Under the pieces are notes generated by a model. That model was not told where the DNA came from. It searched no databases and was given only the letters and a program-made list of their open reading frames with translations. A DNA stretch of 64,000 nt from Gemmiger formicilis. Lineage in GTDB: Bacteria; Bacillota; Clostridia; Oscillospirales; Ruminococcaceae. The translations under genes and the position numbers were made by a program. Of the stretch, positions 10,252-39,261 are shown in pieces. Location of the stretch: assembly GCF_900167555.1 (NCBI RefSeq), contig NZ_FUYF01000001.1, positions 1 to 64,000 of the forward strand, given 5' to 3'. Within the stretch, counting starts at the first letter, position 1. Each line of letters begins with the position of its first letter.

Positions 10252-11652
10252 TTACAGCTCGATCTCCTGCAGCCGCAGCAGCGCCAGAATATAAATCTTC
10301 AGCGCCTCGACCAGCTTCTCAAACGGGGTGCCCTCGTTCGCGCCGTGCATCGGGCCCGCAAAGGACGGGATCTCAATGTCGGTGTGCTCGGGGCCGAAGC
10401 TGACGGCATAGGGGAAGTGGCGCGCATAGGTGCCGCCGCCCATCGTAAAGGGCTTCTTGCCCTCGCCGGTGACGTCGTTGTAGGTGTTGATGAGTGTCTG
10501 GATGGCCGGGCTGTCCGCGTCGATGTAGAATGGCACGCGGCTGCTGACGTTCTCCAGCGTGGCCGCGCCGCCGCAGACCTTCCGGATGGCGGCAGTCATC
10601 TTTTCGGGGTCGGTATTCGTCGGGTAGCGGCAGTCAAAGCTCTGGCGGATGACGCCGTCAGCCATCTCGATCGTGCCGCCGATGATGGTCAGCGGGTCAA
10701 ACAGGCCGTCGTCCGCCGCAATGCCCAGTGCGCTGCCGTCGGTGTCGGCGTGCAGCGTGTGCAGCACGTTCAGGTAGGCCTCCTCCTGCGGGGTGCAGAC
10801 GCCGCTCTTGAGCAGGCAGTTGACGATCAGGCTGATGGCGTTGACCGTGCCCTCGGGCATGGCGGCGTGGCCGCTCTTGCCCCAGCCGCGGATGACGGTG
10901 GCACCGCCCTCCCCTGCCTCGAAGGTCACGCCCTCGGTCTGGACGAGGGCGCCCGCGCCGACCTGCACCGTGCAGGAGGCGCGGTCCGGCACGGCGTTGT
11001 GGGCGACGCCGCCCTCGAACGCCGTGATGATGCCGTTCTCAAACTTCGGGCTGACGAGCTCGCCGTTGAAGCCGCCCTTCTCGCCGTTGCAGACCGGGAA
11101 CTCGGCGTCCGGCGTAAAGCAGAAGGCGGGCATCGGGTAATGCTCGGCGTAGTAGTCTACGTCGTGCATGTTCGTCTCCTCGTTGGCACCCAGCAGGGCA
11201 CGCACGGGGTATTTCAGCGCCGCGCCGCTGTCCTTCAGGTACTTCAGCGCGTACAGGCAGAGGATGCTTGGGCCTTTGTCGTCGGCCACGCCGCGGCCCA
11301 GCAGCCAGACGTCCCCCAAGCGGACCAGGCACGGGAAGCCGGCCAAGACGACCACACCGGGCACAACCACCGCACGCGCGACACGCGCGAGGAACAGCCG
11401 CCCGACGCCCACCCTGCACGACGCGCCCCAGCCGATGAAGCCCGCCGCCCAGAACGTCACCAGGACCACCGAGACGCCCAGCTCCAGCAACGCCACCAGC
11501 ACCACCGAAAGCCAAAGCCCCAACCCTGCGCCCAGCACCAGAGCCACCTCCACGCGGGACACGGCCAACAGAAGCGCCACCGCCCGCACGATCAGGTCGC
11601 CGGTGGTCTCCACAAACGCCGAAACGAACACCAAAACCGCATCGCCCACGTT
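10252..11652 (-). CDS. pepV: Dipeptidase PepV (M20 family); N-terminal third unreadable
   Basis: A Zn-dependent M20 dipeptidase of the cytoplasm. The clean part (10252-about 11320) shows GRGVADDKGPS with the bridging Asp, the catalytic TNEET-like ANEET, the Asp/Glu ligands of SPDAE-type FTPDAEFP, and the C-terminal His in the GPMHGANEG signature, so the catalytic C-terminal and lid domains are intact. Further upstream the sequence enters the T-depleted block, yet the same frame still shows VVP 20 residues before GRG (21 in the Lactobacillus enzyme), LLELG and a V-E...G-x-x-G pattern where the family has them. The metal motif H-x-D reads R-A-V at 11368-11376. The original start is therefore near 11650 (about 465 residues, normal). 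The gene is damaged in this sequence, not truncated by an insertion. The end at 11652 is approximate. Confidence 0.8.
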   Translation of the reverse strand, partial: NVGDAVLVFVSAFVETTGDLIVRAVALLLAVSRVEVALVLGAGLGLWLSVVLVALLELGVSVVLVTFWAAGFIGWGASCRVGVGRLFLARVARAVVVPGVVVLAGFPCLVRLGDVWLLGRGVADDKGPSILCLYALKYLKDSGAALKYPVRALLGANEETNMHDVDYYAEHYPMPAFCFTPDAEFPVCNGEKGGFNGELVSPKFENGIITAFEGGVAHNAVPDRASCTVQVGAGALVQTEGVTFEAGEGGATVIRGWGKSGHAAMPEGTVNAISLIVNCLLKSGVCTPQEEAYLNVLHTLHADTDGSALGIAADDGLFDPLTIIGGTIEMADGVIRQSFDCRYPTNTDPEKMTAAIRKVCGGAATLENVSSRVPFYIDADSPAIQTLINTYNDVTGEGKKPFTMGGGTYARHFPYAVSFGPEHTDIEIPSFAGPMHGANEGTPFEKLVEALKIYILALLRLQEIEL

Positions 11653-14600
11653 CAGAAGAATCACCACCAGACGCGCCACATTCAAGATACCACACCGGCC
11701 AAAGACCGAAAAGCAAAAGAACGTCGGGACCAGCAAACCCATCGGCGTACCCGACCCCCCGCACCACCAAAAGCACACCACCGCACCAAAATAGAAGACC
11801 AGCAGACGATGAACGGGAAAAGGAAACAGCGCGCGGCCAGCAAACAACCCCCCCCCGCAACGGAGGAAAAAATCCGAGACGCACCCGCCCACAAACCCCA
11901 GGAAAATAGCAACAGCCCCCGACACCGAAACCCACCGCCAACACAGCGCAGACGCCACCGCAAAGACGGCGGCCCCCCACACCACCAACGCCAGGCGCAA
12001 CCACGGCCGCACCAAGCCCGTGGCCGACACACCCAACAGCGCCAAGGACCCCGCCCACAAGGACGCCCCCCACAACCCCGCCCAGCACAAGATCGACACC
12101 ACAGACCGAGGGCAGACCACCGAGGACAGCGCGCCGCACGCAGGGCAGCTCAACAAGACCAACCACGGCACAAAAGACAAAAACCCCAACGCGGGGCAAA
12201 GCCACGGCGAAACCCTCGACACACGGCCCTCCCCGACCACCCTGGACACAAACCAGCCCAGCAGCGCCCAGGCCACGGGCCCCGCAGACCCCGCCATGAC
12301 AGCCGCCAGCGGCACCAGCCAGCGCGCCACCAGCGGCAACCACAGCACCGAACCCGCCACCAAGATACACGCCACGATGCACGCCGACCTCGACCCCAAG
12401 CCCCCCGCCATCCAGAGGCAGCAGCACCGCAGGAAGCACACACCAGCCACCCGCAGGCCCAGCGGCCAAGAGACGACCCAGGCAGACCGGGAAACCAGCG
12501 GGTTGCAGCCCCCCGGCAAGGACGTCCCAAAAACAGACGAAAGCGGAAAGCACGCCGAGCCCCCAAACCGAAAGAACCTGGGCAGCGAAACCGCCAGAAA
12601 AACCGAGCAAAAACCGGCCCCCACCGCAGCACCCGTCGCCGGGACCCTGAAAAACACCACACACACGGCCCACCTCGCACTCGCCCACCGCCCGCATCAC
12701 CACCCCGACCGCCACACCCAGCACAACGATGACCTCAGACACAGCCGCAACACCCGCAGACCAGACGGCCACCACCACATACACGGACGAAAAGGCCACC
12801 TCAAACACCACATGACACACACAGAACACGCACCGCAACAACACCCCCCCCACACCGCACACGCCCAGAGACCACGGCCAGGAGAGCCTCGCCGCAAGCA
12901 AGCACCACGACGGCGCAGCCGCCCGCCAGAAAACCGAAGAACGGAACCGGACCCACGCTGACAAAGCGCCAACGAAAACAGCCACAAACGCCCGCCACAT
13001 GGCCAGCCGGCCCCCACCCGTGCACGAGAACACGACGGCGCCCACCACAAAAACCCGCAGCAAAACCGCCGAGAACACAGAAGCGAAGCCCCCCACCGCC
13101 GACGAACGCGACAACAACATCGACCCGACGCCCCCACCCACCGGACAGCCCCAGCACCCCCGGGACCAGGCGAGCACCGCGAAGGCGCGGGCGACCGATC
13201 CGAAAGCCCAGACCGCACCAACGGGCAAGGCAAAAACGCCGCGGGACGCGATCATCGCCCGGTAGAAGGCACACCAGCACGCCAACAAGCCCACAATCCC
13301 GACCGTGCCCCAGCCACCGCGCCCAAAAACAGCCGCAAAGCAGGACCTCGGCCCCGCCAAGCCGAGCCCCCAGGAAACGCCCAGCCCCGCGGCAAAGCCC
13401 AACCGCACCCGCCGCATCGCCGCCAGAAGGAACCGCCACGACCCGGCCAAGAACACCAAAAAACCGCAGAAAGGACACCCCACCAAGAAAAGGGGAAACA
13501 AGGAGAAGAGCGGAGTGCCCCCGCCAACGCAAGCCACAAACAGAAAAGCAACAAAATGCTAAGAAGAAAAACACAGCACCGCCAAACCGTAACGCGCAAA
13601 CAGCAAAGTGTTGGAAAAACACACACAGAGCCCGCAACCGAAGCACTGGCGCAAAGAAACGAAAACAAAGGGCGGGACGCAAAACAACACAAAAAAAACA
13701 AAAAATACACGATCATGCAGGATCGGGGCCATGCAGCGCGTAAAAAACACGCAAGCACAAAAAACGGAAAACACCCCAAAAGCCAGCAGACATTTGACCG
13801 CGACAGACGCACCGGCCAAACGGGCAAAAAAGGATAAAAAGAAGACCCAAAACTCAACCAAACAGCAGCAAACAGGCCCGAAGCCCAGGAGTAAGAGAGA
13901 CGCCAACGCAAAAAGCCCCCTACCACCACACGCACTCAGCAGAGGCGCCGCAGCGACCGCGCAAGCACGACCCCACAAGTCAAAGCGATACAACAAATCC
14001 ACCAAGGATCACAAAAAGGCAGACAGCACCCCAACCCAACCCACACGCCCCTCGCGCGAACCCCACCACGCAAAGACCAGGGCAAAAAACCACCAGCACA
14101 CCGCCCAACAGCAGCTGCAGCCAGAAGGCACGGACTATGACACAAAAATACGCAGCACCGGTCAACCCCCCCGACCAAACGATGGTCAAAATGAACGCGC
14201 CCGCCACCGAAAGACCCAACAGCACCCCCGGCAGGGCCCAGGGCTCATCCAGCAGCACCCCCAACACAGAGAAAAACCAAAAACCGCCCCAGGCGTAAAA
14301 CACCGCAGCAAAATATTCAGAGAAGACACTGACAGAGAACACGGCCTAAAGCCCCCCGGCCCAAACACCGCGAACCGCACCCAACCCAACCACCTCAGCG
14401 GCCCGCAGCAACCTGAAAAAAACTACCGCAACAACATCACCGCCTACAAACAGAAAACCACCACCACACAGCCGGAAACCACCAGCCAGACAACTAAAAT
14501 CGAGGCGGACCAGAAAAAAACCGGCAAGAACCCGCGGCAAGCCGCCGACGGCGGGACCTCGACAACGCAGCAAATGCCACAGCCCACAACAAGGAAAAAA

Positions 14601-17600
14601 CGAGAACCGGCAGGCGAGCACAACTCAATCTCATAAAAAAACACACCACCCAAACCGATCACCATGAGAAGGGCAAAATGACCCAGAATCGGCGGCAGGG
14701 GCCCGACAACCCCGGCCACGTCGGCAAAGGAAGACGCAGCCACACCCAAACCCCCCCCGCCAAAAACGCCCGCCACCCACACGCGAAGAACCTCCTCACG
14801 CCAGCCGATCACAGAAGACGTCCCCGGCGGCGGCCCCAGCACACACGGCGGCCTGCCCAACCACGACGCAGACGGCGTCCGCGCAGAGCCGCTAAACAGA
14901 GCCCAGCACAAGCCCCACAGAATAACAACCCACACGGCCGACCCCGCAGAGAACCGCGCCACCGGAGCCGTCAAAAGGGCGCTACACCACGGGCTCACCC
15001 AAGACGAAAGACCACACCGGCAGGGCCGCCGCCAGCTCAACCACAACGGCCGCACACCCGTACGCCATGCCGCGACCGCAATCGCCCCCAGCGCCCACCG
15101 ACCCCAGCACAATCGGGAAGGAACAGCCACACAACATGGCAGGGACACACCACCCAGACAGACCGCAAAAGGTCCAGCCCGACCAGATGCTCAACGAACC
15201 AGCCTTGGCCAAAGACCCCAGCGAGCCCCCCGACGCAAAGCCCCAGCCAGAACACCAGCACCAGGACAGGACAAGCCACATCACGCAGCTCATAAAGGAC
15301 CCCCTCCCCGCCCCGATGGCAGCCGGCAAGGAGAAACACGGGGGATTCCCCACCAACATGTTGCACGAGCAATCCCAGACCCCGGTAGAACAGAGAGGTG
15401 GCGTAAATGCACCCCTGCGGAACAGCCTGGACGCACCCGACAACTGCACAAACGCCAGGCCACGGCAACGGCAACACAGCACCAGAGACACAAACCCCAT
15501 AGAAGAAGCAGCGCTCAGAGACCGGCAGGCAAGCGGGGCAGGAACAAACGACGACAAGGACGAGACACCCACCATCGCACCCACCCAGAAGGCAAACGAC
15601 CCGCAACACGGCGCCAAAGCGCCAGACACAACCACAGAGCTCCCCGCACCGCCGGCACCACAATACGGCGCCGCCCACGCCAACCACAAAGCCCAGCGGC
15701 ACGGCACCCACGCAGACAAGGGACACAACACCCCGAGAAAAAGAGCCCTCAACAACGGCCGGGACCAGGCCGAGTACGACAAAGAGGACAGGATCGGAAA
15801 GGAAGAGGAGATCAACGGGGAACACACCGAAAGCAAGAAAGCACAGAGGACCTCCATCGGAGAACCAGGCCAAGACGGAAAGGGCACGCGGGCGAAGACC
15901 AAACAGTACGGCCCCGCCACGACCCCCCCGCCGATGCCCAGAAAGAGGACACTGTAGGCAACGATGCCCACAGCACACGGGCGGCCCACACCGGCAGACA
16001 CCAAGACGAAGACGCGAGCACACCCGCAGCAATACCCCGCGCTCCAGCAAACAACGCTCAAAATCGTGCATTCCCACCCCCCGTAGACGGAAAAGCCACC
16101 CGGCCAGAACACCACATACCCCCCCGTCATGACGGAAAAACCCAAGGAAACCCCCCACTGGACCTCCGCCCACCGACGCGAAGATGCGCAAGAAGCACCC
16201 AGCCACAACGGCGCCCAACACCACAAGACCAAAACCAGGCCGCACGCAGTCGACATCGACGGAGCGAACCACCACCGCACCCGCGCCGCAACGAACGACC
16301 AGATCCACACACCCCAGCACAACAACACCTCCGTCCCCGCGCCCGCCCTGGACGAAAAGCACGAATGCACCGGACACACCAGCAAGATCGACAGAGAACA
16401 CCACAAACAGGAGGCCCTAGACCAGCGCGGCACCCGCGAGGAGGCCCGCGTCGCGGAGGGCACCCGAACAGACGCAGACCTGGCCCCCGCCAAATCGCAC
16501 CACGCGATAAAACCCGGCCAGCACATCGAAGACACCACCGACGGGCAGCGCGAGAAAAACCCCGCGGGCGACGCGGCGCAAAAGAACGGCGAACAGCCCG
16601 CCCCCATCGACGCGAGCGGCAAGAACGCAGAAAACCACAGAGCCCCCACAGGAGGCCCGAAAGAACCGAGCCAGCCCGACGCCATACCCCAGATCATGCA
16701 GCCCAGCAAAATCGACACCAGGGACCACGCAACCATGGTCGACGTCCAGAAAAGGAAGTACACACCCAGCGAACAGAAAATCACGCCCACCTTACGCAGA
16801 GAGGACTACGAGATATCGCCGCTAAGCATCTCGACGAACTGCCGCTCCAACAGCCACACACCCCCGGCCAGACCAAACACGCCCGTACAAATCAAAGCCC
16901 CCAAAACCGCGCCGAGGCAGCCCATGACGGAAAGCCCGGCCACCGCGCCCAAGGCCGCAACCCCGACGCCGACCACCACCTCCAGCACAAGAACCGGCAA
17001 AACCGAAAGCTAAAGCCACATACGGGTCCCCTGCAGCGAGACCGACCCGGAAACATCGCCGGCAATAACGGACACAACCCACGCATGGCCGCAGCGCCGG
17101 CAGAACACAACGACCGGCTCGGCGGCAACCGCCGTCAACCCCACGACAGACACAGACACCACCACCACGCCAACACCGACCGCAATAAGGCACACGCAGA
17201 GCAGACACACGACGAACCTGAAAACCAAACCGATGACGCCCACCCGCCCCAGAAGCCAGCGCTCCGCCCCGAGGGCAAGAGACCCGGGCAGGCCCGCCGC
17301 ACCGCCCATCCCCCCGACGACATCGATGGAGAGACCGCCCAGCTGCGCAAGGGCGACAAGAACCGCCAAATTGGCCCTGGAGCCAACCGTGGCAACACCA
17401 AAATCCACAACACGAAAAAACGGAGCACACCACAAAAAAAAGGCAAAAGCACAGCCGAAGACGTAAAAGTCACAAACGGCCATCCGGTCGTAAGCCACCG
17501 CAGAAAGACGAACCGCCCAACCGCCAAGCAGGACAAAAAACCGACAAAGCGACAGGCAACGGCCGCACCCTCCCCTACAGCCCGGCAAAGCCCTGCAACA

Positions 17601-20600
17601 CCCGCAGGCCGCGATCACCGGATTTGCCCGCCCGCAACCGGAAACCGCACACCAGCACCACCCGCAAAACGACAGCGACGGGCACGCAGCACTCGACACC
17701 CCCCACGGCAGAGGCACCCCAGCGACCGACGAAAAACCTGACAACCGAATACACCCACAAACCGACGTCGAAGCACTGCAACAGCGCGTCGGCCTAGCCC
17801 ACGAGCACAAAGTCCAGCGCAGGCCAGACGATGAGGGGCACCGAAACAGCCAGAACGGAAAACTCGGCCAAAAGCGCGCAAACCGCGACCAGAATCAGCC
17901 CGAGAAAGCCAGACGCCCCCGAAGACCAGCCAGGCGCAAACAGAAGCCGCACCCACAAGCAGAGGCCAAGCAGCGGCATCGACCCCGAAACCCCGCGCAA
18001 AACCCGCACAACGCACGTGGCCTCGAGCCTGCCCAGCGCGTAGGCGAAAGCACAGACAACCACCAGAAGAAAAAGAACCGACACCAGCAGCGAACAGGAA
18101 ACGCGGAACACCCGAAACGATACGCCCAGCCATAAGACGCACGACGACACCCTGAACAGCACCCCCACCACCTACGCAAAGAACACCAACAACTAGGACA
18201 CCCCCCAGCAGAACAAAACGCAGACAGCCACCAACAAGAAGGGCAACAGAAAATGCAAGCACACCCATGCACGCGCCCTGAAGGACGCCGCCGAACCGCC
18301 AGATATGCACCCACGAACGCAGCAAAAACCGCAAAGAACAGAGACAGCCAAGAGAATACCAAAACCGCAACCCGCAGACAGTCCGAGAACAACGAAGCAG
18401 CCAACCAGCAAACAAAAAACCCGCGCGCACACAACCCCCCAAAAAACCCAACAAAGGACAGACACCCCCACGCCGCAAACAAAAAACGCATGCCCCACCA
18501 AAACACCGGAAACCCCCCCCAGCCAAACCCACCCCGACTACGCCCGCGCACGCCAATGACCGGGGCCGGTACACCACCAAAAGAGGCCCCCGAGCAGATC
18601 CCCGACGCGCCCGCGCCCCGAGCCACCCCGCGAACACTGCAGGCGCCACAGCGGAAAGTGAAAAGGCGCAAAACCGAAATCAACCCGCGACACGCAAACC
18701 AGAAACCCAACCGTGCACCCCCTAAACGAGACCGGCAGCAAAACCGAGAGCAAAGCACGAAGCACAAATAAGGACCCAAAACCCGCAAACAGCACCACCA
18801 GCAAGGCACGAACACCAAAAAAACAACGACAAAAACAACGACGATACCGAGGTAAGAACCCAGCACACCAGCGATGGCGGCCACCCGCGCAACCAGCCGC
18901 GGCGGCAAAACCCGCCCGCCAATAACAATCGGCTCGCCCAGGCCGCAGGAGATCTGCAAAACCAGGCTCACCTCAGCCCCCACCGCCACGATCAGCTGCG
19001 CCAGGTCCACGAAAACACACAGGACCGCGCAAAAGCCGAAACCCACATCCACGAACGCCAGCCCCCCGCCCCCGCCCCAAAACACGCCAACCACCAGCAC
19101 CAGCTGCCCGTCGCGAACGCCAAAGCAAAGGAGATCCACCAGACCCACGCCCAAAGCGAGCGCAAAAGCCACGTCCACAGCGCCGTGCGCCAAAGCAGAG
19201 CACAGCCGCACCCCAGGCACAACCCCAGCCACCGCCGCCGCCACGCCAGCCACACGAGCGAAACCATCGGCGGCCCCCCCAAGAATAACAACGCCAACGA
19301 CATGAACAAGAGCGCCAGCGGCGGACGGCTCAAGAGAAGCGACGGCGAGGATAAAAGAACCGCCCACACGGGCAACTCCCCCGCCCAAAGCAAGAAGGAA
19401 ACGAACGGCCAGAAGGACACACCCGATCGCATCGAGCAGAACACGGCAGAAGAAAACCCCAGCCCCCGCAACACAACACCCGAGGACGATGTACCAAACA
19501 TGGAATGCCCGAGCTCCCACGAAGCACCCGTCATCACCGCACGAACCATGCCGGGAACCGGAGGGCCGGACACCCCCAGACACAACACGCCCCCGGGCAC
19601 ACCGAGATGAAAAAGAAGCCACAAACGACTCGACAAAAGAAAACACGCATACACGCCGACAGCGGCGGAAACCCCCCCAGCGCGACCAACAAAACCACCC
19701 ACAACGCGCCCGCCAGCCACAAGTTGAACCCGCGGAGCAAGAAGGCCAGCACGCCAGACCCACCACGGAAAGACAACAAAAAACAAAGAAAAAACCGGAC
19801 ACCTAGGTCAGCGACACACCCGCAGAAAAAACCCACAACGGCCACGAGAAGCAAGCGACGAAAACCCCGCACGCGCCCTTGAAGGCAAACGCAGTCCCCA
19901 AAAAGAACAGCCACACCAACACCAGCACCATCTAACACCTCCTGCGCGGCAAAACCGACCACCCGCCCCAGCACCACCCCCAGGGCCGCCCCCGCGCAAA
20001 AGATAAAGCAAAACCGCTGCACAAAACCATCCACCCCCAGCAGCCCCAACAACCCCGCCCTAAAACCGAGAGCCACCCGGACCTGAGCCCCCGCAAAATA
20101 CCCGCCAAGCCCCACACGCACCGCAAGGACCAGGAAGACACGCCCCGCCGGCACCACCAAGATCAGCACCGCAAACACGACATCGACGCAGAGCACCAGA
20201 ACCGAAAGCGCAAGGACAACCACGGCACCAACACCCTCACCCAGCACGACACCGACAATAACGCCACCGTGCGGCTCCACGATGGCACCGGCGAGGACAG
20301 CGCGCGGCACCGCAGCGACCCGCACCTCCACCCCAGCCTGAACCACCCGGGCGAAAACCAAACGGACGGCGACAACCACCGGACCCCCCAACACGTCGGG
20401 CTCGCCCCCGCCGACAACGACCGCGGCGACCCACACGGCGGCACAAGCCCCAACTACCAGAACCAGAACGTCCAACAGAACACCGAGCATAACAACGCCA
20501 ACAACAACCAACAAAACCCCCTCTGCCGCAACCACGAAGACAATCACGACACACACAATCTGAAACAAGCCCGAAAAACCCCCCGGGCCCGAGGAAAAGC

Positions 20601-23600
20601 CGGCCACGGCCTATCCCACGCCCAGTGCAAAAAGCAAATCAAGGCCCGCAATGACCCAGCCAGCAAGAAACGAGGGGGCCACCAGCCCGGCCCGGCCCGC
20701 ACGGGTCAACAGAACCATCCGCCCGAAGCCCCCCACCCGCACCGGAACCACATCCATCAACAAGGCCGACAAGTACCACGCCCACCCGCCCACCACAAAA
20801 ACGCCCGCACCCAGAAAGCCGGTGAACGTCCGCCAAAACACGACCCCGAACTCCTCGGTGAACACAAAGGGGGCAAACACATGCAGACCAGCCAACGGGC
20901 CCACGCCCTACGCCGACAAAATCAGCGGCGTGACGAACGCCGCACAGAAATCCACCACCTCCGCAAAGGCGTACGCAACGTCGGCCAGACCGACCCGCAC
21001 GTCGGACAACCCGGAGTAGCCGAAGATGCAGACGAACTCCATCAGGCCGGCCGCGACGCCCGCCCGGAAATCCGCAAGAAACCAAACCACCGTGACCGCC
21101 ACGTCCGCCGCGGCCCGGATGTCACCCTGCACAAACACCGCGCGCCAGAACTCACCAAAGCCATACAGAAAGAGCACGGTGCAAGGCCCGCCGCCAACGC
21201 ACCAAACAACAACGCAAGCGGGGCGCATGTCAACCTCGAGCATCCCCCGCAGCAAAGCAACCGCGCAGAGATCGACAGAAAAGCCCCGATAACGGTCACA
21301 GCCCGGGCCTGCAACGACGCCCACGGCGCGACAATAGCCAAGAACAACGAGGACAAGACCAAAACACAGGCCAGAGAAATCCACCCCGTAAGCGTAACAA
21401 CGCAAACGCAGCCACCGCGCCGCCAGCAACGCGCACAGCCAAAAATCACAAACCGTCAAGCAACCAGCAAAGCCCCGCCCACGGAAGCCCGAAACCCCAC
21501 ACGCCCAGCCACCCACAAAAGACAACGGCCCACCCCGAAAAACAAAAGCGCACACACGGACCCCCACGACGCGGAAACAAAACCCCTGCCGACAATCCCC
21601 ATGGCCGAACCGCACCACCCCACGGAAAACACAACGCCGCCCGGCGCGACGAGGAAACACCCCACAAAGCCCCACCGGCACGCGACCACCAGCACCCGCG
21701 GCGCAGGCCACAACGCGGTCCCCCGCGACCACAAGCCCCACAGCAACGCGGACCCCGCCCACCCGAGCCACCCCGTAGCCAAGCCAACCGGCAACAACGG
21801 CGGCGACCGGCACAGCGCCGACACAGGCCGCAGCGGCCCAGCAAAGCGCCACAGCGCGGCTAAGGACAGCACAAAGCAAAAAGCCAAAGCCCCCCACGTG
21901 AACACCCGCAGCAGGCAGGCACACCGTCCCCCCCTCAACACCGCGAACGCCAGCCCCGCCACAGACCAAGAAAACACAACACCCCTCGAAGACGACAGGC
22001 AGCCAGCCATGCCCAAGGCCAGCCGCCACCCCCACACCGACCCGCACAGCCCCGCCGGCAAAACCCACAGCGCAGACAGCGCCCCCAAACGGCAGGAACA
22101 CCCCCAGGCGGCGCGCGAGCCCCTCACCGTTCAGCCCAACCACCCCGGCAGGGCGAACAGCCCCGAAACCCAGCAACCGGCGCACGCCCCCAGACACGCG
22201 GAAAGCCCGGCGGTACGAAGCCAGGCCGCAATCGCGGCGCAAAGCAAAGCCAGCACCCTCGCCAGTGCAGCAGCCCGGAACCGCAACGCGCCCACAAGAC
22301 CCATCAGCGAGCAAACGGAAATCACACACACCACACAGAGCACGGACACCGCGGCCAGAATTGGAAGGCCCAGACACACAAAGGACCCCTCCCCCTCGGC
22401 GCCAAACACCCCCATCCGCGACAAACACACCCCCGAGACGGGCGAGAAGGCACGGAGCGCCAGACGGGGGAACCAGACCCCAACACCAGAAGAAAAGAAC
22501 TCGCACGCAACCCCAAAGAGCCGGGCCATCGCAACGATCGACACCCCAACGCCGGCCGGCAGAGCCCCCACCCAGACGGCCACAACAGAAAAAGTCATGA
22601 CCGCTCCCCACGGCAGAAAGAAAGAAGAACCCGCAGACAGGGACGACGCACCAAACCGCGACGAACACCATGTGCGGGACCCACACGGCCCAGACAGGGC
22701 ACGCAGGCACAAGGAAGCCCGCGCCGCCACGGCAAAGCACGGGACAGCGACAGCCATAACAGTCCGACCCCGCCCAGCCGACACAAACCCCAGCAGAAAA
22801 GACGGCAGCAAACTTGGAAACGGCAAAGCCACAAACATAACCCACACAGGCGAGCGGAAACCCAAACGCACGGTGGCGGACGCGACCACACCCAGCCCGC
22901 ACCAGCCCCATAAAAACCCGGATGCCCGAAAACCGCCGCCACCACATCAGCAGACCCTACACCATCAGGAAAAACGTAGCGCCGGAGCCCAGAACCAACC
23001 GCCAGCCGTCGAGGACGAAGCCCACCACACCGGCGGGAGCAGCCTGCCCCACCGCAACATAACGCAAAAAACAAAAAAACCCAAACCGCCCGTAAAACAA
23101 AAACGCGCCGTACGCCTCGACAAAATCACCCCGGGCAGCCCTCCCCCACCCAACCGCCGACCACACCGGCAGCAACCAGCCCGGCAGACGCGACAAAACC
23201 AGCCCGCCGCCGGGATACCCCAACACAACCCAGCGCCACAGCGCGAACGGCAGCGGCGCCAAAGCCGCGAGCCAAAACGGCGGGCAGTCGAGCAGCGCCA
23301 GCAGCAAAAACACCCTCAGGCCCCACGACGGGCGCCCCAGGGCCCTCAACTGCGCCACCAGGGACGGCTGCAGCCACCCCGAACCCATCGTCAGCACCCC
23401 GCCCCGCGCAAACAGGCGCAGGGCCAACCACCACCTCAAAGCCCCAAAGATGATCCCACTCATCACCGGCAGGCGCACCGGCCCGAAAAACACAAACAAC
23501 AACGCCCACAACAAAGCCACCCACCCCAAGACCGACCACAGGCTGCAGCAAAAACACAGCCAAAACCCATTTTCAACGAAAAAGCACGCAAACTCCGGGA

Positions 23601-24925: not shown

Positions 24926-24951
24926 CGGAGGGGGCAACACCCCTCCCCACA
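24926..24951. repeat. Corrupted copy of the 26-bp intergenic repeat
   Basis: The sequence aligns without gaps to the clean copies at 4396-4421 and 10156-10181, with three substitutions: T>G at 24934, G>C at 24938 and T>C at 24948. It marks an intergenic point inside the block. Confidence 0.7.
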
Positions 24952-27806
24952 AAGCCACAATAAAACAGCGGCACATTCACAAGGCAGCCGACCAGGCAGC
25001 CCCAGCCCCCACAAACCACCAGCGCAAAACAACCCCGAAAGAACACGCACATCCCCGCAAACCAGCCCCAGAGAGACCCCCAACCCAACATAGACGCCGC
25101 GCACACCGTCGCACGGAAGGACACCGGCCAGCCCCCGAAAAAGGAGCGGATCCACAGGAAGCACATGCCCGGGCAAAAGAACGCGATCCTGGGCCAAACC
25201 CCAGAGAGCAAACCGCACACTAAGGTCAGCCCGCAAACGGTGAACGCCCCGGCGCCGGGGCACGCATACCGCAACCACACCGCGCCGGGCCAGAAGCCCC
25301 AGCTCAACCGGAAGGACAAGCACCGGACATAGACCCCACGGACCCGACAACACGACGGGCAGTAGACCGGAGAAAAAAACAGATCCCCGCGGAAAAGCCA
25401 GAGAAAAGAACCCACCGCCCGCGCAACCGAAAGTATAAGCAGAACGAGGTCTGAGAAAGCATCCACTGTAAGAAACCCCACGAGCACAAAGAATAAATAA
25501 CAAAGAAAAAAAAACAAACGCGGAGGTTCCAGACGCCGCACCACAAGAAAAAAGAGCAGGCAGCCCACAGCAGCACAGCCGACGAACACGGAAAAAACCC
25601 CAACCAGCGTAGACCCCAACCACCCGGAGAAAACCCCACACTGCAGAAGACCGCTCAATAAAAAGCCGCGAAACGAAAAAACAAGAGGCAGCAGGGAGAC
25701 CCCCAGCCGCCCCCCACAAAGGGCAAACACCCACCGAACGAAACCAACCCCCAACCCCGGAAAAAGCAACAACAGCGACAAAGCACCCAGCAAGGGACAC
25801 AAAGACCACAACGACCGGCAAAAGTACGACAACGAAAGCAACCACGAGCAGGCCATAAGCCCCAGAGTACCGACCAAAGAACACACAAACGCCGAGAGAA
25901 ACGGCAGCCACAGCCCGAGCCCGAACGCAGACCAGCGGTCCGACAAAAGCGGCCCAAGCCGGGACGAAGGCAAACAGCACAAGCAGCCAAACAGCAGGCA
26001 CACAAACAAAAACAACCATGCGGGCACACAGACCGCACCCGGACAGACAAACAACACCGGCAACACCACAAACCGCACAGCCAACACACCCAGAAAACCG
26101 CGGCACCACGAAAACGACAAAACCCCCAAAAGCCGGCAGAAAAACGACACACAGAGCAAGAGCAGCAAAGAGCCAGAAACGAACCACAACGAACGCGGGC
26201 ACCACGGAAACCCCCCACAGCACAGCGAGCCCCACGAGACAGCCAACCAACAGAACGTGCACACCAGCGAAACACACACGGGAGAAAGCAAAAGCGACAA
26301 AAAAAGAGAGAACGACCGGCAAGACCGAGACGACGACGCACACAAAAACCAGCCGCCGAACAAAACAAAGAAGCGGCACCCAAGGCCAGACCCCCACACA
26401 ATCAGGCAGAACCCGAAGCAAGACGACACACTCAAGGAGGAACCAAAACACCTCCGCCCGCACAGAGAAGCACCCAGAAAAAACACAAAGCAAAGAAAGC
26501 ACAACAACGCCAGACACCACCAGCAGCACGGCGTACAGCACAAAGCGCACCACAACAACATACGCCCCCACCGAGCCGAGCGAGGTCGCAACTACGGCAG
26601 GAGCCAGAGAACCTTCCACCAGCCAGAAATAGTTCAGGCACCAGCCAAGCAACCGCACCAACCGCACAAACACCAACACCACAAACAGAACCAGCCAAAA
26701 AGCACTCGCGCACCAAAACCACAACCGCATGACCAAGCCCACGCTCAAGAGGCAGGAAAAAAGGAACAGGCACGCACTGCCCCCGCACCCAGGCAGCAGC
26801 AGCGACAGCCAGGCAAAAACAGGGAACAACGCGATGGTCACCAAGAACAGAAAGAACAAGCAGGGCAAAGCCACCCACACCAGGGCCACCGGCCAGAAAA
26901 AAGGCCACCTGCGCCCAAAAACCAGCGCCGCAGCCCCCGCCACCTCGCGGTTCGCCCAAGGAAGACAGCACAGACAGATCACAAGGCAAAAACACATGGT
27001 CGACAAAACGCTGAACAGCAAAACCGTGAGCAAGGCGGCCTCCGTAACACAGGCCCACGCCGACACCGAAAACAAGACAAGCAGGACAAAGACCGCCTTG
27101 ACCGGGCCCAGGGAGCGGCTGAAAATCAGCGCCCAAAACCCAACAACGCAGAACACAAAGCCAACGTACGGCAAGAAAGAAACGCCACACAAGAACAGCA
27201 GAAACCTGACCTCCGGCGTCACAAACATCGCCAGACCAAGGCTGAACAACAAGGACACCAGAACCATGCCGAACGCGGACACCAGCAGATTGACAAAAAC
27301 AACCCTGAAAGCCTGCACACCCAACAGGGCAACAAACTCGCCCAGGACCAGCAACGCGACCGGAGCGACACAAAACCAGTCGCAGAACGAAACCACGACA
27401 GCGAAGATCAGGGGCAACAGCGCAAACAGCCAGAACCCGACCAACACAGCGACAATGAAGCGGCACGCAACCACAATAGCGCGAACAGACCAGCTCACGC
27501 CGCGCGTGACGGCCGCCAGCACAGCCGCCGTGATCTCAGCCAGCGGACAGACCCCCCAGCTGCGCCGGCAAGAAATAACGGGCAGGAGCGCCCGCCCGAC
27601 CCACATAGAAGGAAAAGCAAAACCAAAGAAAAAGAAGACAGAAAACGCAGTAGGAAGCACCCCAAGACAGCCGGCACCCGCGCCCGCACGCGGCCGAGGA
27701 AAGCCCCAACCGCCGAGATCGAAGCCACCACGACGGCATACACGGCGGTAACCACCATCACCAGCTCGGAAGCACAGTCAGAAAGAGCCAACTCGAGATA
27801 CACCCC

Positions 27807-27831
27807 CGGAGGGGGCAAAGACCCCACACAA
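27807..27831. repeat. Probable second corrupted copy of the same repeat
   Basis: cggagggggcaaagacccc resembles the clean element (cggaggggtcaagacccc) with T>G and one extra A. The second half has diverged further. This assignment is weaker than the copy at 24926. Confidence 0.35.
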
Positions 27832-30800
27832 CAAACCGCAGAAAAAAAGCCACCGATACACGACACGATACCGCTGCCCCCAGCACGGCCAACCGCGCAG
27901 AAGGCACCGACCCCACCAAAACACCGGGCACCAGCCTCAGAAGCGCACCACCGAACCAAGGCCAGACCAGCATCCCGATGCCCAGAAGAACCGCGCACGG
28001 CAAGGCCAGCCACAGCACCCAGAAGAAAACCGGCAGGGCCACCGCCCGCATGAGGAGACCAAACGATGCCAAAGCGGACCGGCGGGACACAACCGCAGGC
28101 AGACTCCCCAGGGCACCAAGGCAGGCGAAAGACAAACCACAAACACAGCGCACAAAGAGCACCCCGACCCGGCTCAAAAGCACCAAAATAACCAAAACCA
28201 CAGCGCGCAGCCGCGCCGCAGGCACGGAGAACACCCCCACCCCGCCCGCAAAAAACCAGCCCGGAGCAAGCAGGCAGCAAAGCATAACCCCCGCCAACAA
28301 CGCACCGCGCGCCGTCCAGCATGCCAAACACCCAGCCCCGACAACCCCAACGCTGCGACAGAGCGCCGTAGAAACCGCACGCAAAAACGACCCCCAGCAC
28401 AGCACCCGCAAACCCCGCCAGCCCCACACACGCAGGGCCAGACCCCACACCGCCCCGACAGAAGACGGCCAGACGGCAGAACAAGACCAAGAACCCAGAG
28501 CGGAACAGCACAGCCAAAGAAGGACCGCCCGCACAACGCAGCTGAAAAACAACCCCGACGAACCTACCCTCGGCACGGCCCACCGGGCCACCAACAGGCC
28601 CAACAACACCGAGGAGAACCACGCGGCACTAACAGGGCACAGCCTGGAGCGACAGAACAGCCAACCCACCGCAGCCGCCAGCCACAGCGCAAACCAGAGC
28701 GGTCAGCTAAACCGCAGAGCCCACAGCAGGCACAGCGAAGCCGACGCAAAGCGGGCCCCCCACATACCCACCAACCACACCACACCAGCAACCAGAGCAC
28801 TCCGCACCCCACACAGCCCAATGAAGCCCGACACCCGCGCCGACGCAACCGCGGCGATCGGCAAAGCCCGCCGTGCAAGAACCGCGGCCAGCCCCGCCAC
28901 AAACGGTACCAGAGCGAGAGGCCCCGGAACCCCCGAACGCCCCCACACACAGGACCACGGCACCTCACACGCCGAGACCAGCAAAACGACGCACACCACG
29001 CAGAACGTTTCGCCGCCCAAGAACAAAACATGGCTGCAGAACACCGCCTTCACCCCCGCAGGCCGGCCCGACCCGCACATGGCCAAGACAACACACAAAC
29101 GACCCAGCAAAATGGAGCGCACGCAGCCGCCCACCACGGAAAAACTGACCCCAGCACCACAAACCCGCCGCAAAAAACCGGAACCGTCGTAAGAAACACG
29201 CAACATATAGCGGCCCATACAGTCCCCCCCCCCCGCGCAGCCGTCCCGGCGGCTATTCTGCACAGCGGGGCCACTCACACGCCAAGTAAAAGAAGCAAGC
29301 CAGGCAGAAACCCCCGTCCGTCAGCGACCCCACCTTCCCGCAGGACCTGCAGGCGTACTCAAACAAGGACAGAAAGAAGCAGTCATCGACAAGCACAAAG
29401 TACGACACACACGCACCCACGCAACGCAGCAGACCCGGAAGATGGTCGAGACCCTCGGCCAACACCCCCTCACCCCCCCCACCAAAAAGCACCACAGGAC
29501 CGACCAGCAGAAACGCAAGAACATCCAGAACGCAAAGGATGCACGGCACACCGCCAAAGCCCCCATCCCCCGCCACCCACACGAGAGCGAACACCTGGAC
29601 AACCAGCGCGCCGACAACCAAGGCATCCGCACCGAACTGCTAAACGACAAAACCCCCAGCAAACACGCACAGACGAAAAAACCAAAACACAAAGCCAACA
29701 AAAACGCGATGCGCACGATAGCAAAAAGCAAGCACCTTCCACTCAGCAAAGCCTCGAAGCGGAAAACGAAAGGAGCCACAGCGGACAAAAATCAAGCAAC
29801 CAGCACACCAAACAGACGGCACCGCACGCAAGATCACCAATCACCAAAAACCCGGGCGGACGACACCCGCCCCCAACCCCGAAAACGAAGATCCCAGCCA
29901 GCCAAAACCAGACCCGCCACCAACAAACTGAACCCGCACGCCACACACACCACAGACCACGGCCGAAGAGATCGCCACCCTGCCCAAAGCCACCCCCCCC
30001 CGCGCAGAGGCACCCGAACCCAAGCCGCAAAGCCGGAAGGCCAAACAGCAAAAAACCGCGACACCAGCAACCGCAGCCACCGAGCCGCCCGCAACCGACC
30101 CAACGCCGACGGAGACGAAGCCGGACAGCTGCACAGAAACAAGCGAGACCCCAACACCGACGGCCACACACGCGACCCCCGCAGCACAGCACAACCGGAA
30201 AAGCGCGACACCAGAGCAAAACAGGAACTGTACCTGAACGACGGACACCCCAACGGCAACACACAACGACAGAACACCCGAGCGGCGGGCCCGCGCCGCA
30301 GCAGCCGGACAGCAAACCGGCAGCACCCATGAGCACAGGACGCCCCGCTGCACCCGAGAAGCCACCAACCAAAGGCCCCGCCGCAAAGCCACACAGAAAA
30401 AAAAAACCCCGACCATGCCGCTGCCGACCCAGATATGCAATCCAACAACGAGCGCGGCGAAAACGGACCCGAAACCAACACCAGGGCAGACAGCGCCACA
30501 CCACGGACGGACCACCCCCGCAAGCACGAAAAGCACAAGCAGCACCGCCAACACCCGAAACAGCAAAACCAGACCAAACAACACGGCAATGATAATACGC
30601 CCAACAGCACCAAGCAGAGGGCAACCATCCAGCACGCCCCAGCCATAGCACAAAGACCCAGACCAATAAAAAACCGGAGCAAGAGCAGGCCCAAGACCAA
30701 CGAACGCATGGCAACACCGCATAAGGAGAACGCCCGACACAACGACCAAGGCACGACACAGCAGAACCCAAAAGCCCACACAATAACGCAGGACGTAACC

Positions 30801-33800
30801 AACATCGAGGAAAAGCAGATGAACCACAGCAGCCGCAGCACCCGGGCCAAAGCACAAACCCGCGAAGAGAACGCGATCGCCCAAGCCAAGCAGCAGAAGG
30901 GCAAGGCCCGCGACCGCACACGCCAGAGCAACCGCCACACCGCCAACCACCACCCCCGCAGCCACCTAACCGAAGACAGCACCGACACAACGCAGGACCA
31001 GCCCGCAAACACCCAGCACAACACCCGCCCCGACAAAGACCACGACAAAGACCGCCATGTCGGCAAGACCAACAGCCACAAGCGCCTACAAAACAACCTC
31101 GGCCAGGCCGACGCCCGGAGCATCCAGAGTGACACCGAAAACAAAACAACAGTAACAAGCCAAATCCAAGGCCCCCACAACCAAAAAGAAAAACGCCTCG
31201 GCCTGGCACCACACGAGGACGACGAGACGACCAGCAGCCGGCACAGAGCCCAACACAGCCCAGACGCAACGGGACACCGCGGGCCCAAAAAGGCCCCGCC
31301 ACCGCAAACAACCCCGAAAAGCCCCGAAGGCCCGGTCAGCAGAAGCAGCCGCAAACCCCAGCAGCCCACAGAAGGAGGCCAGAAACGGACGGCCGAGAAA
31401 GCGCCGAAGCCTGCCATAACCACGGATACGCACTCCCAGCCTGCAGCAGGCGGAACACACAGAAGGAAAAAGACCAGGCCAAAAGCAGCAGACCGCGCCG
31501 CCCAAAGCAAAAAAAAGAAAAGAGCAATCACACAGAAAACAGCCTGAACGAAACGCGAAAACACGCCCGCCCAACCGCCAAAAAACAAAAAAAACCGCGC
31601 AGCCCAGCCACCCCCCCAGGCAGCAGCCACACCCCACCGAAAAGCCGCAGCCGCCAGAGAGACGGCCGGCGGGTCACGGAACGCCACCCCACAGACCGCC
31701 ACGCTGCCCAACTGCCCCCTGCCTGCAAACCACCGCCACAAAGAGGCGCGAGAGCCACACCACAAACGACAAACAGGCCAACAAGCAAGCACGCAACGCG
31801 GACCACCCCCGCGACACGCAGGACACACCAACCGCGGCCAAAATAACGCCCCTGACGCGCAACCGCCAGGCAACGCCCGCAATCATCGGGGCCGCGGCCA
31901 CGCGAAGAGCACCACGACCCAGAAACTAGACGGACACCGAAACGGAAAACTACCAGACAGATTTGACACAACGAAAGCACCACTACAAAAAAATGGGCGC
32001 CACACAGAACGGGGAACGACACAGCAAAAAGCAGCGACAGCCAACAACACCCCTGCGCCACACGACCCCGGCCACAAGAAGGCGAGCCGGCGGCCGGAAA
32101 CCACCAAACCCCCAACACCCAAAAACACCACCGCCCGCAAGGAGGCCCCCAGAGGCAACAATATAGCCGCGATCATCGGCCACAGCCGCGGACACAGAAC
32201 GAGCCAGCAGCAAACCAAAAGGCCACCCCGAACTAAGGAAGCCACCCAGCTCCACAAAAAACCGAGACAGGGCATCGGGAGCGAGCCACTCCCACCAGCA
32301 GAACACCTGCAAAGAAACGCAGGGCCCACACCGAACGCAAGGACTAACACACCAGCCACAACCACCGCTCTCACAACGAATGACACGGAAGAAAGGGGGG
32401 CAAAAAGCGCCAGAGCCACAGCCAACGGGACCACAGGCAGACAAGGAACCGACAGCAACAAGAAGCAAAACAGCAACCAACCCCGCAAGAACCAACAGCC
32501 CGACCCAATCACCCAGATAGCCAACCGAGCCGCAGCACAAAACCGGAAAGGCGACGAACGCCAGACCGCGCCCCGGCAGAAAGCCATAACAGACACACGA
32601 AACAAGACCGAGCTGCCACGAAAAAAACAACAGCAAGTCACCAAAAACGCCGAACGCGACAAGCCGGACAACCCCGACCCGGACCGACAACGCACACGCG
32701 CCCCGACGGCAAAGCCCCAGGCCGGGAAGAACCGCACCACACATACACCACCACTCACCCACCTCGCCTAGCGCAAAAGAAACCACAACCCCGGGCAGCG
32801 GCCCGCCCACAACACCGAGATCCGCGACACGCCACACAGACCGCTGCAAAAAAGAACCCGGCCCATGAAAGACCGGACCCCCGACGAAACCACCGCACTG
32901 AAAACAACCGCCGGCAGCCCGCAGGGACAAGCGCGAGACAAAAACCCCCCCAGCCAGGCCGCGAAACTCAGCAGCGACAACAAACGAACCCCGCCGACGC
33001 CCCAACGCAACGCCCAAGTCTGCCGGAGGCGCAACCGCCACGAGCCCAGGCGCAACTAGACGCCAAAGGCCACACAGAACCAACCGCCAGCCGCCACAAA
33101 CTGACAAAAGGCAGAGGAACAGCCCAAACAAGTGCAGCAGACCGCACACAACAACGACGCCGGTGTGAACGACAACCGGAAAGACCCCCCCAGCACCCAG
33201 GCAGCACAGCAGCACAAAAAAGCAACGCGCACGACGCGCAAAACACTGCAACGGCGCCGCAAAAGGACCCCAACCGCCGGGGAAGACGGCAGACCGCAGC
33301 CCAAGATCAGGAACAGCGCCCAATACATCGACAACACCAAAAAGGCAGGACCATAATACCGAAACTAAGCCCACGAAACCCAGCTGGCAGGGGCACAAAC
33401 GGTACGGGAAAAACCGCGCAGCAAAAAAATGACCAACCCGCACAGCAAAAACCAGGACGCCCGCGACTTGGCCCACACCAGCCCCGCCAAACCCCACCAG
33501 GACCCGCCGCAACACCACAACGACAGCGACAGCACCAACCGGCACAACCACACCAAGGCCACAACCACTCAGCGCAAGCCCACCGACCCGGCAGAAACCG
33601 CCGCCCCCACCGCCACCCAACAAGCCGCCAACCCCAGCAAAAGCAAGAGCCACACCCCCCCCGGCACAAACACACTCCACGGCAAAGCCCCCAGCAACGC
33701 CAACACCAACAACCAAAACGACCCGCCCACCAGCAAAAACAAAAAAGAACGCACAACCATACAAAACCACCCCGCACAAGAGACATACACAAAAAAGACG

Positions 33801-36800
33801 CACAGCCCACAGCGGGAAAACATCTGGAAAAGACAGTCCGACTGGCACAAAAGAAACCACTTCCACCAAGACGGAACCAAACACCACCACCACCCCCACA
33901 CCGAGGAGGCCCCCCCAGACCGCACCGACACCGAAACGCACGACAGCCGCAAAACGGACCCTCACCACCCCCACGCCAGCGGCACCGGCCCCCAACGGGA
34001 AAGCCACAGAGCACAACTGACACAGACCCGCCAGAACCGCCCCGAGGAGACCCAACACCCGCGCACCCAGGCCAACACACTAACGAGCGGCGAGAACCAA
34101 GCCCTGGACCGCGACACAGACGCGGTCGACCCGCGCCCCGCAGAACCCCTGAACGGCGCCCACAAAAGCGGAACCGAAAACGCGCCCACCGCCCACCCAA
34201 ACCGGCGCCAACACGCACCCGACACGCCAGACCACACACGCACATACCTTACACAACACCATCCCCTCAAAAAACGAGAAAACGAGACAAAACAAAACGA
34301 AACCCACCAACATCAAGATAAGCGACACCAACGCCATGACGCCCCGGACGGACACACCCCACACCCAGGTCAGCCAGGGGAACATCAACGCCTACAAGCA
34401 CGCGGACAGCGTCACCCTCGAGATCGACACGCCCGCCCACTACCTGACCACCCACAGCGAGGACACAACGCCCAACACACGCGCCCACGTCGCCAAGAGC
34501 AAGATCAACCCCAACACCAAGCTCGCCAAGCAGGCAACCACCAACAGCACCAAGAGCACGACCGACGCATCCAAAAACATCCACGCCCACATCGCCAACC
34601 CGGAGGAGACCGCCGCGCCCAGCAACCTGCCCGACAACCCCGACAACGAGCAAAGAGACACCGACTCCATCCCCAAGCCCCACGCCAACGTGCACACCCG
34701 CGGCAAGACCGCCTCAAACACCCGCAACGCAACCGACACCACGTACCACAACAACGCCCACGGCACCACCACCAACAAGAACGCGGCCAGCAACAGCGAC
34801 CCCAACGCCGCAAACACGCCGGACTCCGGCCGCAACATCACCACCCACCAGCGGCCCATCACCCCGCACGCCGACATCCCGAAGGAACCCGCGGCCACCA
34901 AGCACAACGTGGAACCGCACCACCCCAGCCACGAAGCGCGGGAGCCAAAAAAGGCCGCCGCACACCAGTGCGCGCCCAGCGCACCGAACACCATCAAGAG
35001 CCGGAACCCGGCGGAGCGCACCAAGCCCGACGACCCGGCCCCCATCACCCACCGGACCCAGAACGAGACCAGCAGCAGCGAAGCGAAAAACCGGCAATAA
35101 ACGCACCAACACCAAACCCCCACGACGCGCCCCGACGGGAACATGGCCATACAAAAATAAACAAAAAACAAAAAGCACCGCAGCCTGAAACCGGAAAGAC
35201 AGGTGAGCAAAGTCACGGCAAACGAACCCACGGACCCCAGATACCCAACCAACCCCCCGACAAACTGCACAACACCCACGAAAGAAAAAAACCACCACAG
35301 ACCCGCCAGAACGGCGGAGCCGCAGCAGACCAGCAAACGCCCAAAGAACAAATCAAAGACCGCGACACTACCAACATACCAATCCCCAACAGAGCCCGCC
35401 CACAGCCGCAGCCCATAAAAACCCATAAAGGAGAGCAGACCCCATGGGACATCCAAAAGCGGTAAACCAAAAAACATAAACGGCTCAGCCAAAATTGCCA
35501 GAGGCGAACAAGACACCGCCGCCAAGACAAACGCCATAGCAGACAACGACCAAGAGCATCAGCGCAACAACCACCGGCAAGTATATGCTTGAAAAAAAAA
35601 CCCCAACGCCCAAAAGCGAGAAAAAAAAATGAAGGCCCGAGACACCGCGCCCCGCAAGTAAATCAGCAGCGCCGAGGACCCCGCCCTGGACACAAACCGG
35701 AACAGCGCCCACCACGTCGCCATACCGGATGCGCCCGACCAGCCAGACACCCACACGCAACACCGCAGCGCCCAAAGCAGCAACCCCCGCAGCGCGCAGC
35801 ACCGCCAGCAGATGATCAACACGAGAAACCAGAACGGGGTCCCAAAGAGAAAAGGAGCCAACACAAACCCCGGAAAAGAGCTGCCCAGCACCCAGAAAAC
35901 CACCGACGGTGTAGCGGACAAAAACCCAGCCCAGAACCCCACACACATCCCCCACAGCAACACGCACGCCCCCAGGGCCAGCGGCAGAGAGCACGTCAAG
36001 AACTACGCGAAGATAGCCAGCCCCCCCCACGAGGCGCCACCCCGCAAAAGGATGCCAAGCCCCAAGCCGACCACGAGGACCGACCACAGCACAGCCACCG
36101 CCGGACCGGCGGTCAGGCACCAGAGGGTCGGGAAGAGCCACGAAAAAAGGCCCAGAAACCCCGGAACCAGCATGCGGGCCCAGACCGTAGCGGCACCGAA
36201 CGACCACCCGCACGAAAAAAACCCAAGCACGAACAGCACGAAAGACAAAATAAGCGTCACGCCCCACAGCGACAGCGGCACAAAGCAGCCCACAACGATC
36301 CACAAACCCGAGACCCGGCCAACCCACGCACGGCGCCGCACAAGGAAGAAGGACAACAAAGCCGCAAAGACGGCCACCGCCCAGGTAAGCAGCCAAAATG
36401 CACGCACCCCCGCAACCGCGGGCAAACAGCATGGCGTAAACCACAGACCCCAACCACTCCGTCACGCCCCGGCCGAGGCCCACGGTGCAAAACGTCGTCA
36501 TCTGCGCCCAAACTAAATCAGAAATATAGCACCACAAGACCACACAGAGCAACTCCAGCGCATCCCAGCAAGAGCCCAGCACGAGCAGAGTCGACAACAC
36601 CCCCGTCAAAAAGAAAAAGAAAAGCGGCACCTCAAACTGTGCCGCGTACACCAACACCTGCGGCGCGAGGTTCACCACAGACCCGGCGGGAGATCCCACC
36701 CACAGCGCCGGACCAAACAGGGAGGCACGCGCCCCAACCCCCACCACAGCCGCCAACAGCAGCGACAGCAACAGAACGAACACGAAGCAAAACAAAATCG

Positions 36801-37141
36801 CGCAGAAAGGTTGCAAACCCAAAAACAACTCCAGAAAGCCACCGATCAAAACACCAAAACAGAAGACAAAAGAAAAGGGAGAGAAAGGAAGCAAAAGCGC
36901 CCGGCGGCGGGAATCGCGCGGCAAAAAAAATCGCCGCTATAGGGAGCACAATCCCCAACGCCCCGCAGAGCACAGCACCTTCCCACCAACAGCAAAATGG
37001 GCGCGGCGCCGAAAACGCGCCGATGAGGAGCAACAGCACAGGAAAGAACGCCGGCGGATTGCCAAACGGAAACGCACCCCGCAGCAACCCACCGCACACG
37101 GCAGCCACCCCCGAGGGGAAAGCCAAAAAAGGCTCCAAACT

Positions 37142-39178
37142 CAACAACCCTGCCGGCTCAAACAACCGACCCAACACATCGGAAAAAACCCACCGCACAG
37201 CGCACAGCAGATACGGGTACTCACCCAACAAGGCCTTGGCTCCGGCCCACACCACGCGCAACCCGCCGCACAACTCCAAAAAATCCGCCACCCGCAGCCG
37301 CGGCAGACCGTGCGGCGCAAAGCCAAACAAAGCACCCCCGCCACGGGCCGCCAGAGCAAACGACGCCACAACAAAACCATCCGACGGCACGCACAGGAAT
37401 TCCACCCACACGCCCACCCCGCAGGAGCCGTCCACCCAAACCAGAAGAAAGCAGCAAACAGCTCCCACGCGCCCCACGCGCCCGCCCAGCGGGGGCAGAC
37501 CCGACACGCCGAAAAAATCCCAAAAAACAATCACCACCACCATCGCCCTCCAAAAAAAAACGCCGACCGCGATGACGCTCCGCAAAACAAGCACGTCCAC
37601 ACAACCGGCCTGGAATCCCGCCAACACAACCGCCGTAACACAGCGCACAAGCGTACCGGAAAACACGACAAAGCGACACTACGGCACCAAAGAAAAAGAA
37701 ATAGCGCTAAAAAACCCAAAAAAAAACAACACAGCACCCAGGGCGGCGCGGACCAAAAGGGCCGAACAGAACAAGAAGACACAAAGCCCCCACAAGATCC
37801 GATGATACAGAAAACCGGACATAAAGAGGAGCTTTTGCAAAGGAAACAACAAAGTACGGAGAAAACGACCCCAAAACCCAACCACAACAAAAACCAAAAG
37901 ATCCAGGTCGCCGTACATGAGCAGCCCCAGCGTGCGCGGGATGGGCGTGGCGCTCATGACCAGCAGGTGCGGGCTTTGTGCCTTGCCCGCCAACAGGCCG
38001 CGCTGCCGCACGCCGAAGCGGTGCTGCTCGTCCACGATGGCGAGGCCGAGATTTTTAAATTCCACGGTGTCGGTCAGCACGGCATGCGTACCTACGACTA
38101 AATTTGCCCGCCCATCGGCGATAGCCTCCAGCGCGATGCGCTTCTCCTTCGCTTTCATGCCGCCGACCAGCAGCGTGACGTTGACGCCGAACGGCTCGAG
38201 CCGGTCCGCCAGCGTGGCGGCGTGCTGGCGGGCTAAAATTTCCGTGGGGGCCAGCATGGCGCTCTGCCAGCCGTTCTGCGCGGCAAACCAGATGGCCGCG
38301 GCGGCCACCAGCGTTTTGCCGCTGCCGACGTCGCCCTGCAAAAGCCGGTTCATCGGCACGTCGCCGCAGAGATCGGCCAGAATTTCCTCGGTGGAGCGCT
38401 TTTGCGCACCGGTGGGCGGGTACGGCAGGCTGCGCCAGAACGGGCCGAGGTCCAGCGGGTGCATGGGGGCGCTGGTCTTGCGCCGCCCGTGGCTGCGCAG
38501 CAGGAAGATGCCGATTTGGAGCAGGTACAGCTCCTCGAAAATCAGCCGCCGCCGCGCCGCGGCAAGGTCGTCCGCGTTTTTGGGCGCGTGGATGCCCCGC
38601 ACGGCCTGCGCCTTGGCGGGCATCCGGTAGCGGGTCAGCAGCTCGGGCGGCAGCGGGTCCACAAGCTGGTCCGCGAACGCCAGCGCTGCATGGGCACAGC
38701 TGGCGTGGCGGCTGGCGGGCAGACCGTCGGTGCCGGGATAGACCGCCACAAACGGGCAGTCAGCGACCTGAGCCTCGGTGCGCACCAGCGGGTGCAGCAG
38801 CTCGCGGCGGGTCAGCGCCCCGCCGATGCGGCCCTCAAAGTAGTAGGTCTCCCCCACTTCCAGTTTGTCCGCCGCGTAGGGCGCATTGAACCACGACAGT
38901 GCCAGAATGCCGGAATCGTCCGCCGCCAGCACCCGGTTCATGACCCGCCCGCCCTTGACGCGCCGGGCAGGCTCCTTTTGCAGCACGGTTGCGCGGACGC
39001 AGCATTCCACGTCATACGGCGCGGACACGACGGTGTAGGGCTGCGTGTAGTCGATGTATTTGCGCGGATAGCACAAAAGCAGGTCGCGGATCGTGAGGAT
39101 GCCGAGCTTCTCAAATTTTTTGGCGAAGGCCGGGCCAACGCCCTTGAGAAATTGGACGGAATCGTTGATGGTGGGCAT
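37142..39178 (-). CDS. recG: ATP-dependent DNA helicase RecG; C-terminal third lies in corrupted block
   Basis: RecG remodels stalled forks and Holliday junctions. The clean part (37901-39178) has the wedge/OB domain (about 1-230), Walker A GDVGSGKT, motif Ia LAPTEILA, the DEQH box (VDEQHRFGV) and motif III MSATPIPRT. Inside the block the same frame continues, ignoring a spurious TAG at 37679-37681: SVIAVGV (37559-37579) for STVIEVGV, GGRVGRVG (37463-37486) for RGRVGRG, SDGF (37373-37384) and HGLPRLRVAD (37283-37312), all at family spacing. The original protein would end near 37142, about 678 residues, normal. The start at 39178 follows AAAGGAGG. The end coordinate is approximate. Confidence 0.88.
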
Positions 39179-39261
39179 GGGAGCCTCCTTTCTTTGGGAT
39201 GGCGGGCGGTTGGCAGGAAATGGGCAGTGACGCAAGGCAGCGGGAACGAAAGCGGTATACC

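Follow-up and report, generated by a model that had tools for sequence, protein, structure and literature searches.

When contigs are joined through a wrong overlap or a wrong gap closure, the misassembly normally consists of one piece of sequence appended to another. Strand-biased hypermutation, caused by deaminases or by retroelement mutagenesis, leaves one or two kinds of change. When ALLPATHS-LG efasta is converted to fasta, a single letter is kept out of the alternatives listed for a position (PMC6434015, PMC6617929). The locus described here resembles a wrong overlap between two contigs in that a short chance identity lies where the unrelated pieces join, but differs from it in that both pieces appear to be merged letter by letter, over 26.6 kb. 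It shares a strong strand asymmetry and a clear border with hypermutated DNA; its changes, however, are of six kinds and match a second locus. As with flattened alternatives, there is one letter per position, and alternatives that were sorted before the first was taken would give the alphabetical minimum. Flattened alternatives normally differ at few positions, unlike those in this block, and the sorting is assumed here, as the passages of PMC6434015 and PMC6617929 concerned mention no alphabetical order. A search of the open part of PubMed Central returned no description of such an overlay.

The window analysed here comprises the first 64,000 nucleotides of contig C68 in a Gemmiger formicilis assembly (genome of 3.24 Mb in 92 contigs, completeness score 99.67%). 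It contains a block of extreme composition which we consider, with a probability of about 0.97, to be an assembly artefact: two pieces of the same chromosome would have been overlaid, and the alphabetically first letter kept. We refer to the pepV-recG interval as layer 1. Layer 2 would be the chromosomal piece due after contig C69 and leading towards the start of C68. The features of the locus are as follows (positions in the window; a strand is given for the two genes).

10252-11308, minus strand: pepV, clean C-terminal part left of the block, M20 peptidase (Pfam Peptidase_M20 domain)
11289-11302: 14 bases identical in pepV (layer 1) and at the end of C69 (aspartokinase) by alignment, adjoining the first change on the left
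11309-37900: putative overlay block, from composition, one-way changes and edges; its start may lie up to 23 bases earlier (11286)
11309-20450: layer 2 identified as the sequence after the aspartokinase gene (relative G013, contig C90, ~49.5-58.5 kb, and relative G014)
20450-35200: same one-way rule, layer 2 not found in relatives; short repeats of the same genome at ~30700-30850 and 34740-35020
35200-36380: layer 2 identified again (G013 C90, ~58.7-59.9 kb; G014 at 35210-35510)
36380-37900: last part of the block, layer 2 not found in the stretches of relatives scanned
37901-39289, minus strand: recG, clean part right of the block (Pfam RecG_wedge and DEAD domains)

Between 11321 and 37900 the base frequencies were A.343, C.394, G.223 and T.040, in contrast to A ~.19, C ~.30, G ~.32 and T ~.19 in the flanks on both sides. 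T thus made up 4.0% of the block as compared with 19.1% before and 18.9% after it, A and C were raised, and G was lowered (.223 against ~.32 outside), so that the depletion is not confined to T. Every 1-kb window from 12001 to 37000 held 24-57 T per 1000, and the two edge windows held 85 and 61. The abrupt, T-poor block of 26.6 kb with an excess of C and A, which an earlier note on this DNA had pointed out, is thereby borne out. Stop codons numbered 62-88 per frame, compared with 159-230 in a right flank of equal length. All six frames are therefore low; the earlier remark that frames stay open together as an effect of composition and not of coding was right, but the effect is not limited to the minus strand. 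In the 0.88 Mb of this genome examined besides the window no block-like composition was found; there, a single 1-kb window had any base below 10% (A, 9.3%).

Both edges are sharp and fall inside genes, as had been claimed: the left one in pepV and the right one in recG. The first change common to the relatives that were lined up is at 11309 (four of six loci alignable there), and the last one is at 37900 (five of eight loci alignable). The Pfam domains of recG were called on an ORF at 37679-39289, 222 bases of which are inside the block.

We compared the block with the two closest relatives, G014 and G013, which belong to the same genus and carry pepV and recG on one contig each. The distance between the two genes was 24.7 kb in G014 and 30.1 kb in G013, similar to the 26.6 kb here; a piece of about 5 kb in the interval is present in G013 only. 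The block was colinear with both intervals, with few gaps and some stretches unaligned, and its identity to the relatives was 58%, as against 89-90% for the aligned flanks. Ten layer-1 ORFs taken from G014 gave Pfam matches in six cases, with domains of, for example, histidine biosynthesis, tRNA nucleotidyltransferase and nicotinate phosphoribosyltransferase. By sequence comparison, layer 1 is the genuine stretch between pepV and recG in this Gemmiger chromosome.

An island or foreign insert would have sharp edges and a deviating composition, as the block does. The block, however, occupies and aligns to an interval that is ordinary in both relatives and brings no extra DNA, so the earlier judgement that it does not look like an island holds, and we regard an insert as the least probable of all the alternatives considered here. 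Five of the longest ORFs of the block had no Pfam match at E 0.001, which also speaks against an island; by the same token, any gene annotation inside the block would be spurious. A search of a plasmid collection returned five records, all weak, the best covering 13% of the query at 68% identity.

We then counted substitutions at positions where G014 and G013 agree on the letter. From 11309 onwards, 6390 of 17,512 positions had changed to a letter earlier in the alphabet and only 222 to a later one. In the flanks the counts were 135 down and 114 up among 5698 positions on the left, and 47 down and 33 up among 1637 on the right. Over 17,492 positions from 11330, A was retained at 96.5%; C became A at 17% and was unchanged at 81%; G became A at 21% and C at 28%, and was unchanged at 51%; T became A at 18%, C at 32% and G at 30%, and was unchanged at 20%. 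All six downward kinds of substitution are thus present. The rule held over the whole block, with 96-98% of the changes downward in each of eight sub-ranges, and it also held within ~20450-35200 (3614 down, 130 up). The letters that substitute for T had the same base composition as ordinary DNA of this genome. Such a one-way matrix is what results when the true sequence and another, unrelated one are merged by taking the minimum at each letter. Two clean stretches of this genome, 20 kb each, when merged in this way had the composition A.350, C.393, G.222 and T.035, near the values of the block.

The earlier note favoured a consensus or base-calling failure in which T was seldom called. T is indeed the most depleted base, and a consensus artefact remains our reading too; T was not specifically missed, however, since C and G were displaced as well, and each time by a letter that precedes them in the alphabet. 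A simulation in which only T was lost gave A.246, C.349, G.360 and T.045, unlike the block, and a second real sequence (see below) accounts for the letters. A failure to call T is therefore exceedingly improbable. A strand-biased hypermutation scar in real DNA, which would explain the abrupt edges and the strand asymmetry, is still less probable. A simulated process of T-to-C and G-to-A changes (A.300, C.460, G.197, T.043, at rates that we chose) came nearer to the block than T loss, yet it yields none of the transversions observed; furthermore, the new letters, of six downward kinds, are those of a specific other locus. The identification of that locus excludes the mutational scar that the earlier note had envisaged should the DNA be real.

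Scanning the stretches of this genome for layer 2 gave one strong match, of 80.5 bits, to the last 74 bases of contig C69. The alphabetical minimum of the G014 letter and the C69 letter equalled the window letter at 80 of 80 positions (11304-11383). C69 stops within an aspartokinase-like gene (AA_kinase and ACT domains), and its last 1000 bases had one full match in this genome, cut at the contig end, besides 15 others of fewer than 100 bases each. The 14 bases that adjoin the first change (11289-11302) occur once on the plus strand of the window and encode Leu-Gly-Arg-Gly in pepV; by our own reading of the aligned letters, aspartokinase would read Leu-Gly-Arg-Gly at the same 14 bases. They are probably the anchor of a wrong join made on this chance identity.

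Other sources within the assembly did not fit layer 2. Comparing the block with itself, either shifted by a fixed distance or reverse-complemented, gave weak signals only, the strongest at codon-like lags, and scans of the remainder of the window and of the rest of contig C68 found no second layer. When 3 kb of the block was searched against this genome as plain DNA, matches other than the block itself did not exceed 43 bases.

Downstream of aspartokinase, layer 2 could be followed in the relatives, where the matching end of this gene precedes the end of the pepV match by 26.4 kb (G013) and 27.1 kb (G014), with no change of strand. When 132 windows of the block were compared with the sequence after aspartokinase, 37 exceeded 25 bits with G013 and 32 did so with G014, all of them plus-strand matches and in order; with reversed letters as the null, the best scores were 12.1 and 9.8, respectively. 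When G013 supplied both layers, their minimum agreed with the window at 87.8% of 6549 positions (58.7% for layer 1 and 57.7% for layer 2 by itself), a figure that describes the identified parts only, as the positions were selected from windows scoring at least 20 bits. The same selection was passed by 157 of 530 windows with G013; with three control sequences it was passed by none of 530 in each case. For ranges picked by hand after the scan because of the matches there, the minimum fitted at 83-93%, falling to 47-61% when the second layer was slid by 37 bases. Since G013 differs from this strain by ~10% in the flanks, little is left to explain in the identified parts.

Layer 2 was thus identified over about 40% of the length of the block. 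Within the second identified range, the G013 matches are at 35700-36380, and a weaker G013 match at 35210-35510 was grouped with them. Of seven further ORFs from the G013 counterpart of layer 2, one, a short-chain dehydrogenase, was above the curated Pfam cut-off. The start of C68 matches G013 ~14 kb after the end of aspartokinase, which places the missing piece between C69 and C68.

We also searched this assembly for a separate copy of layer 2. Among the 40 of 432 candidates that were scored, the 9-kb G013 counterpart matched the end of C69, a dispersed repeat, one place of 104 bases and, weakly (62-69%), three places inside the block. For a first repeat-free piece of the counterpart, the 40 of 96 candidates scored included no match in this assembly, and for a second piece the 40 of 132 scored included only weak matches in the block; as a positive control, the first piece recovered G013 and G014 at full length. 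As judged from these scored candidates, the part of layer 2 searched (not its middle) would exist in the assembly only within the overlay. The dispersed repeat, of about 140 bases (L084:6866-7009 in G013), gave 44 match rows at 38 places in this genome; it is often readable on both strands, and a nearby Rfam match was far below the gathering score.

Taken as an overlay, the block suggests the following course. Layer 2, as one continuous piece, would have been laid gap-free over layer 1 for ~26.6 kb, apparently anchored on the 14 shared bases, and positions at which the two differed would have received the alphabetically first letter, either through a tie rule or through two-base ambiguity codes of which only the first base was kept. 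In one version the record itself holds two-base codes in the block, which a later step, at the submitter or in a database copy, flattened. Cutting such codes to the first base gives exactly the alphabetical minimum, and only A, C, G, T and N were present in 181 loci (2.46 Mb); this absence also fits the rarity of the codes, however, and may reflect nothing else. We rate this version at somewhat under even odds.

The T-poor block does not exist as such in the chromosome. The two layers of 26.6 kb, together about 53 kb of genuine chromosomal sequence, are consequently not directly readable here, despite the completeness of 99.67%. The test for one-way changes against relatives is simple and can be applied wherever an assembly has a block poor in T and rich in A and C. 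It is conceivable, though we think it rather unlikely, that letter-by-letter overlays recur in public assemblies as a class of error that has gone unnoticed and that the one-way alphabetical matrix can detect; if so, they hide real genes and create false ORFs, which then turn up in databases as orphan proteins.

The central part of layer 2 (about 20450-35200) was absent from the stretches of G034, G026, G027, G002, G003, G004 and G008 that were scanned, except that its first bases, at 20410, match in G008, and a scan of the DNA around pepV in 75 of 80 loci did not reveal it either (best score 19 bits). It contains repeats shared with contig C46 (~34740-35020) and with contigs C77, C75, C55 and C79 (~30700-30850). 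Repeats of the genome itself fit an origin of layer 2 in the same genome, and the hidden layer of ~14.7 kb may be a strain-specific insert that carries them.

At its right end, layer 2 showed no overlap with the start of C68, and no partner contig was found for the right edge. Among 28 contig ends there was no end-to-end overlap of at least 14 bases that might have pointed to the assembler; five pairs of contig ends share 20-69 bases within their last 300. Contig C65 contains a run of exactly 10 N (L054:16473), with the look of a fixed-length scaffold gap. The window ORF at 60-917 had no Pfam match. C68 begins within the counterpart of a gene (window 1-966; L084:16587-18539) that in G013 has Rep3 initiator domains of the plasmid type.
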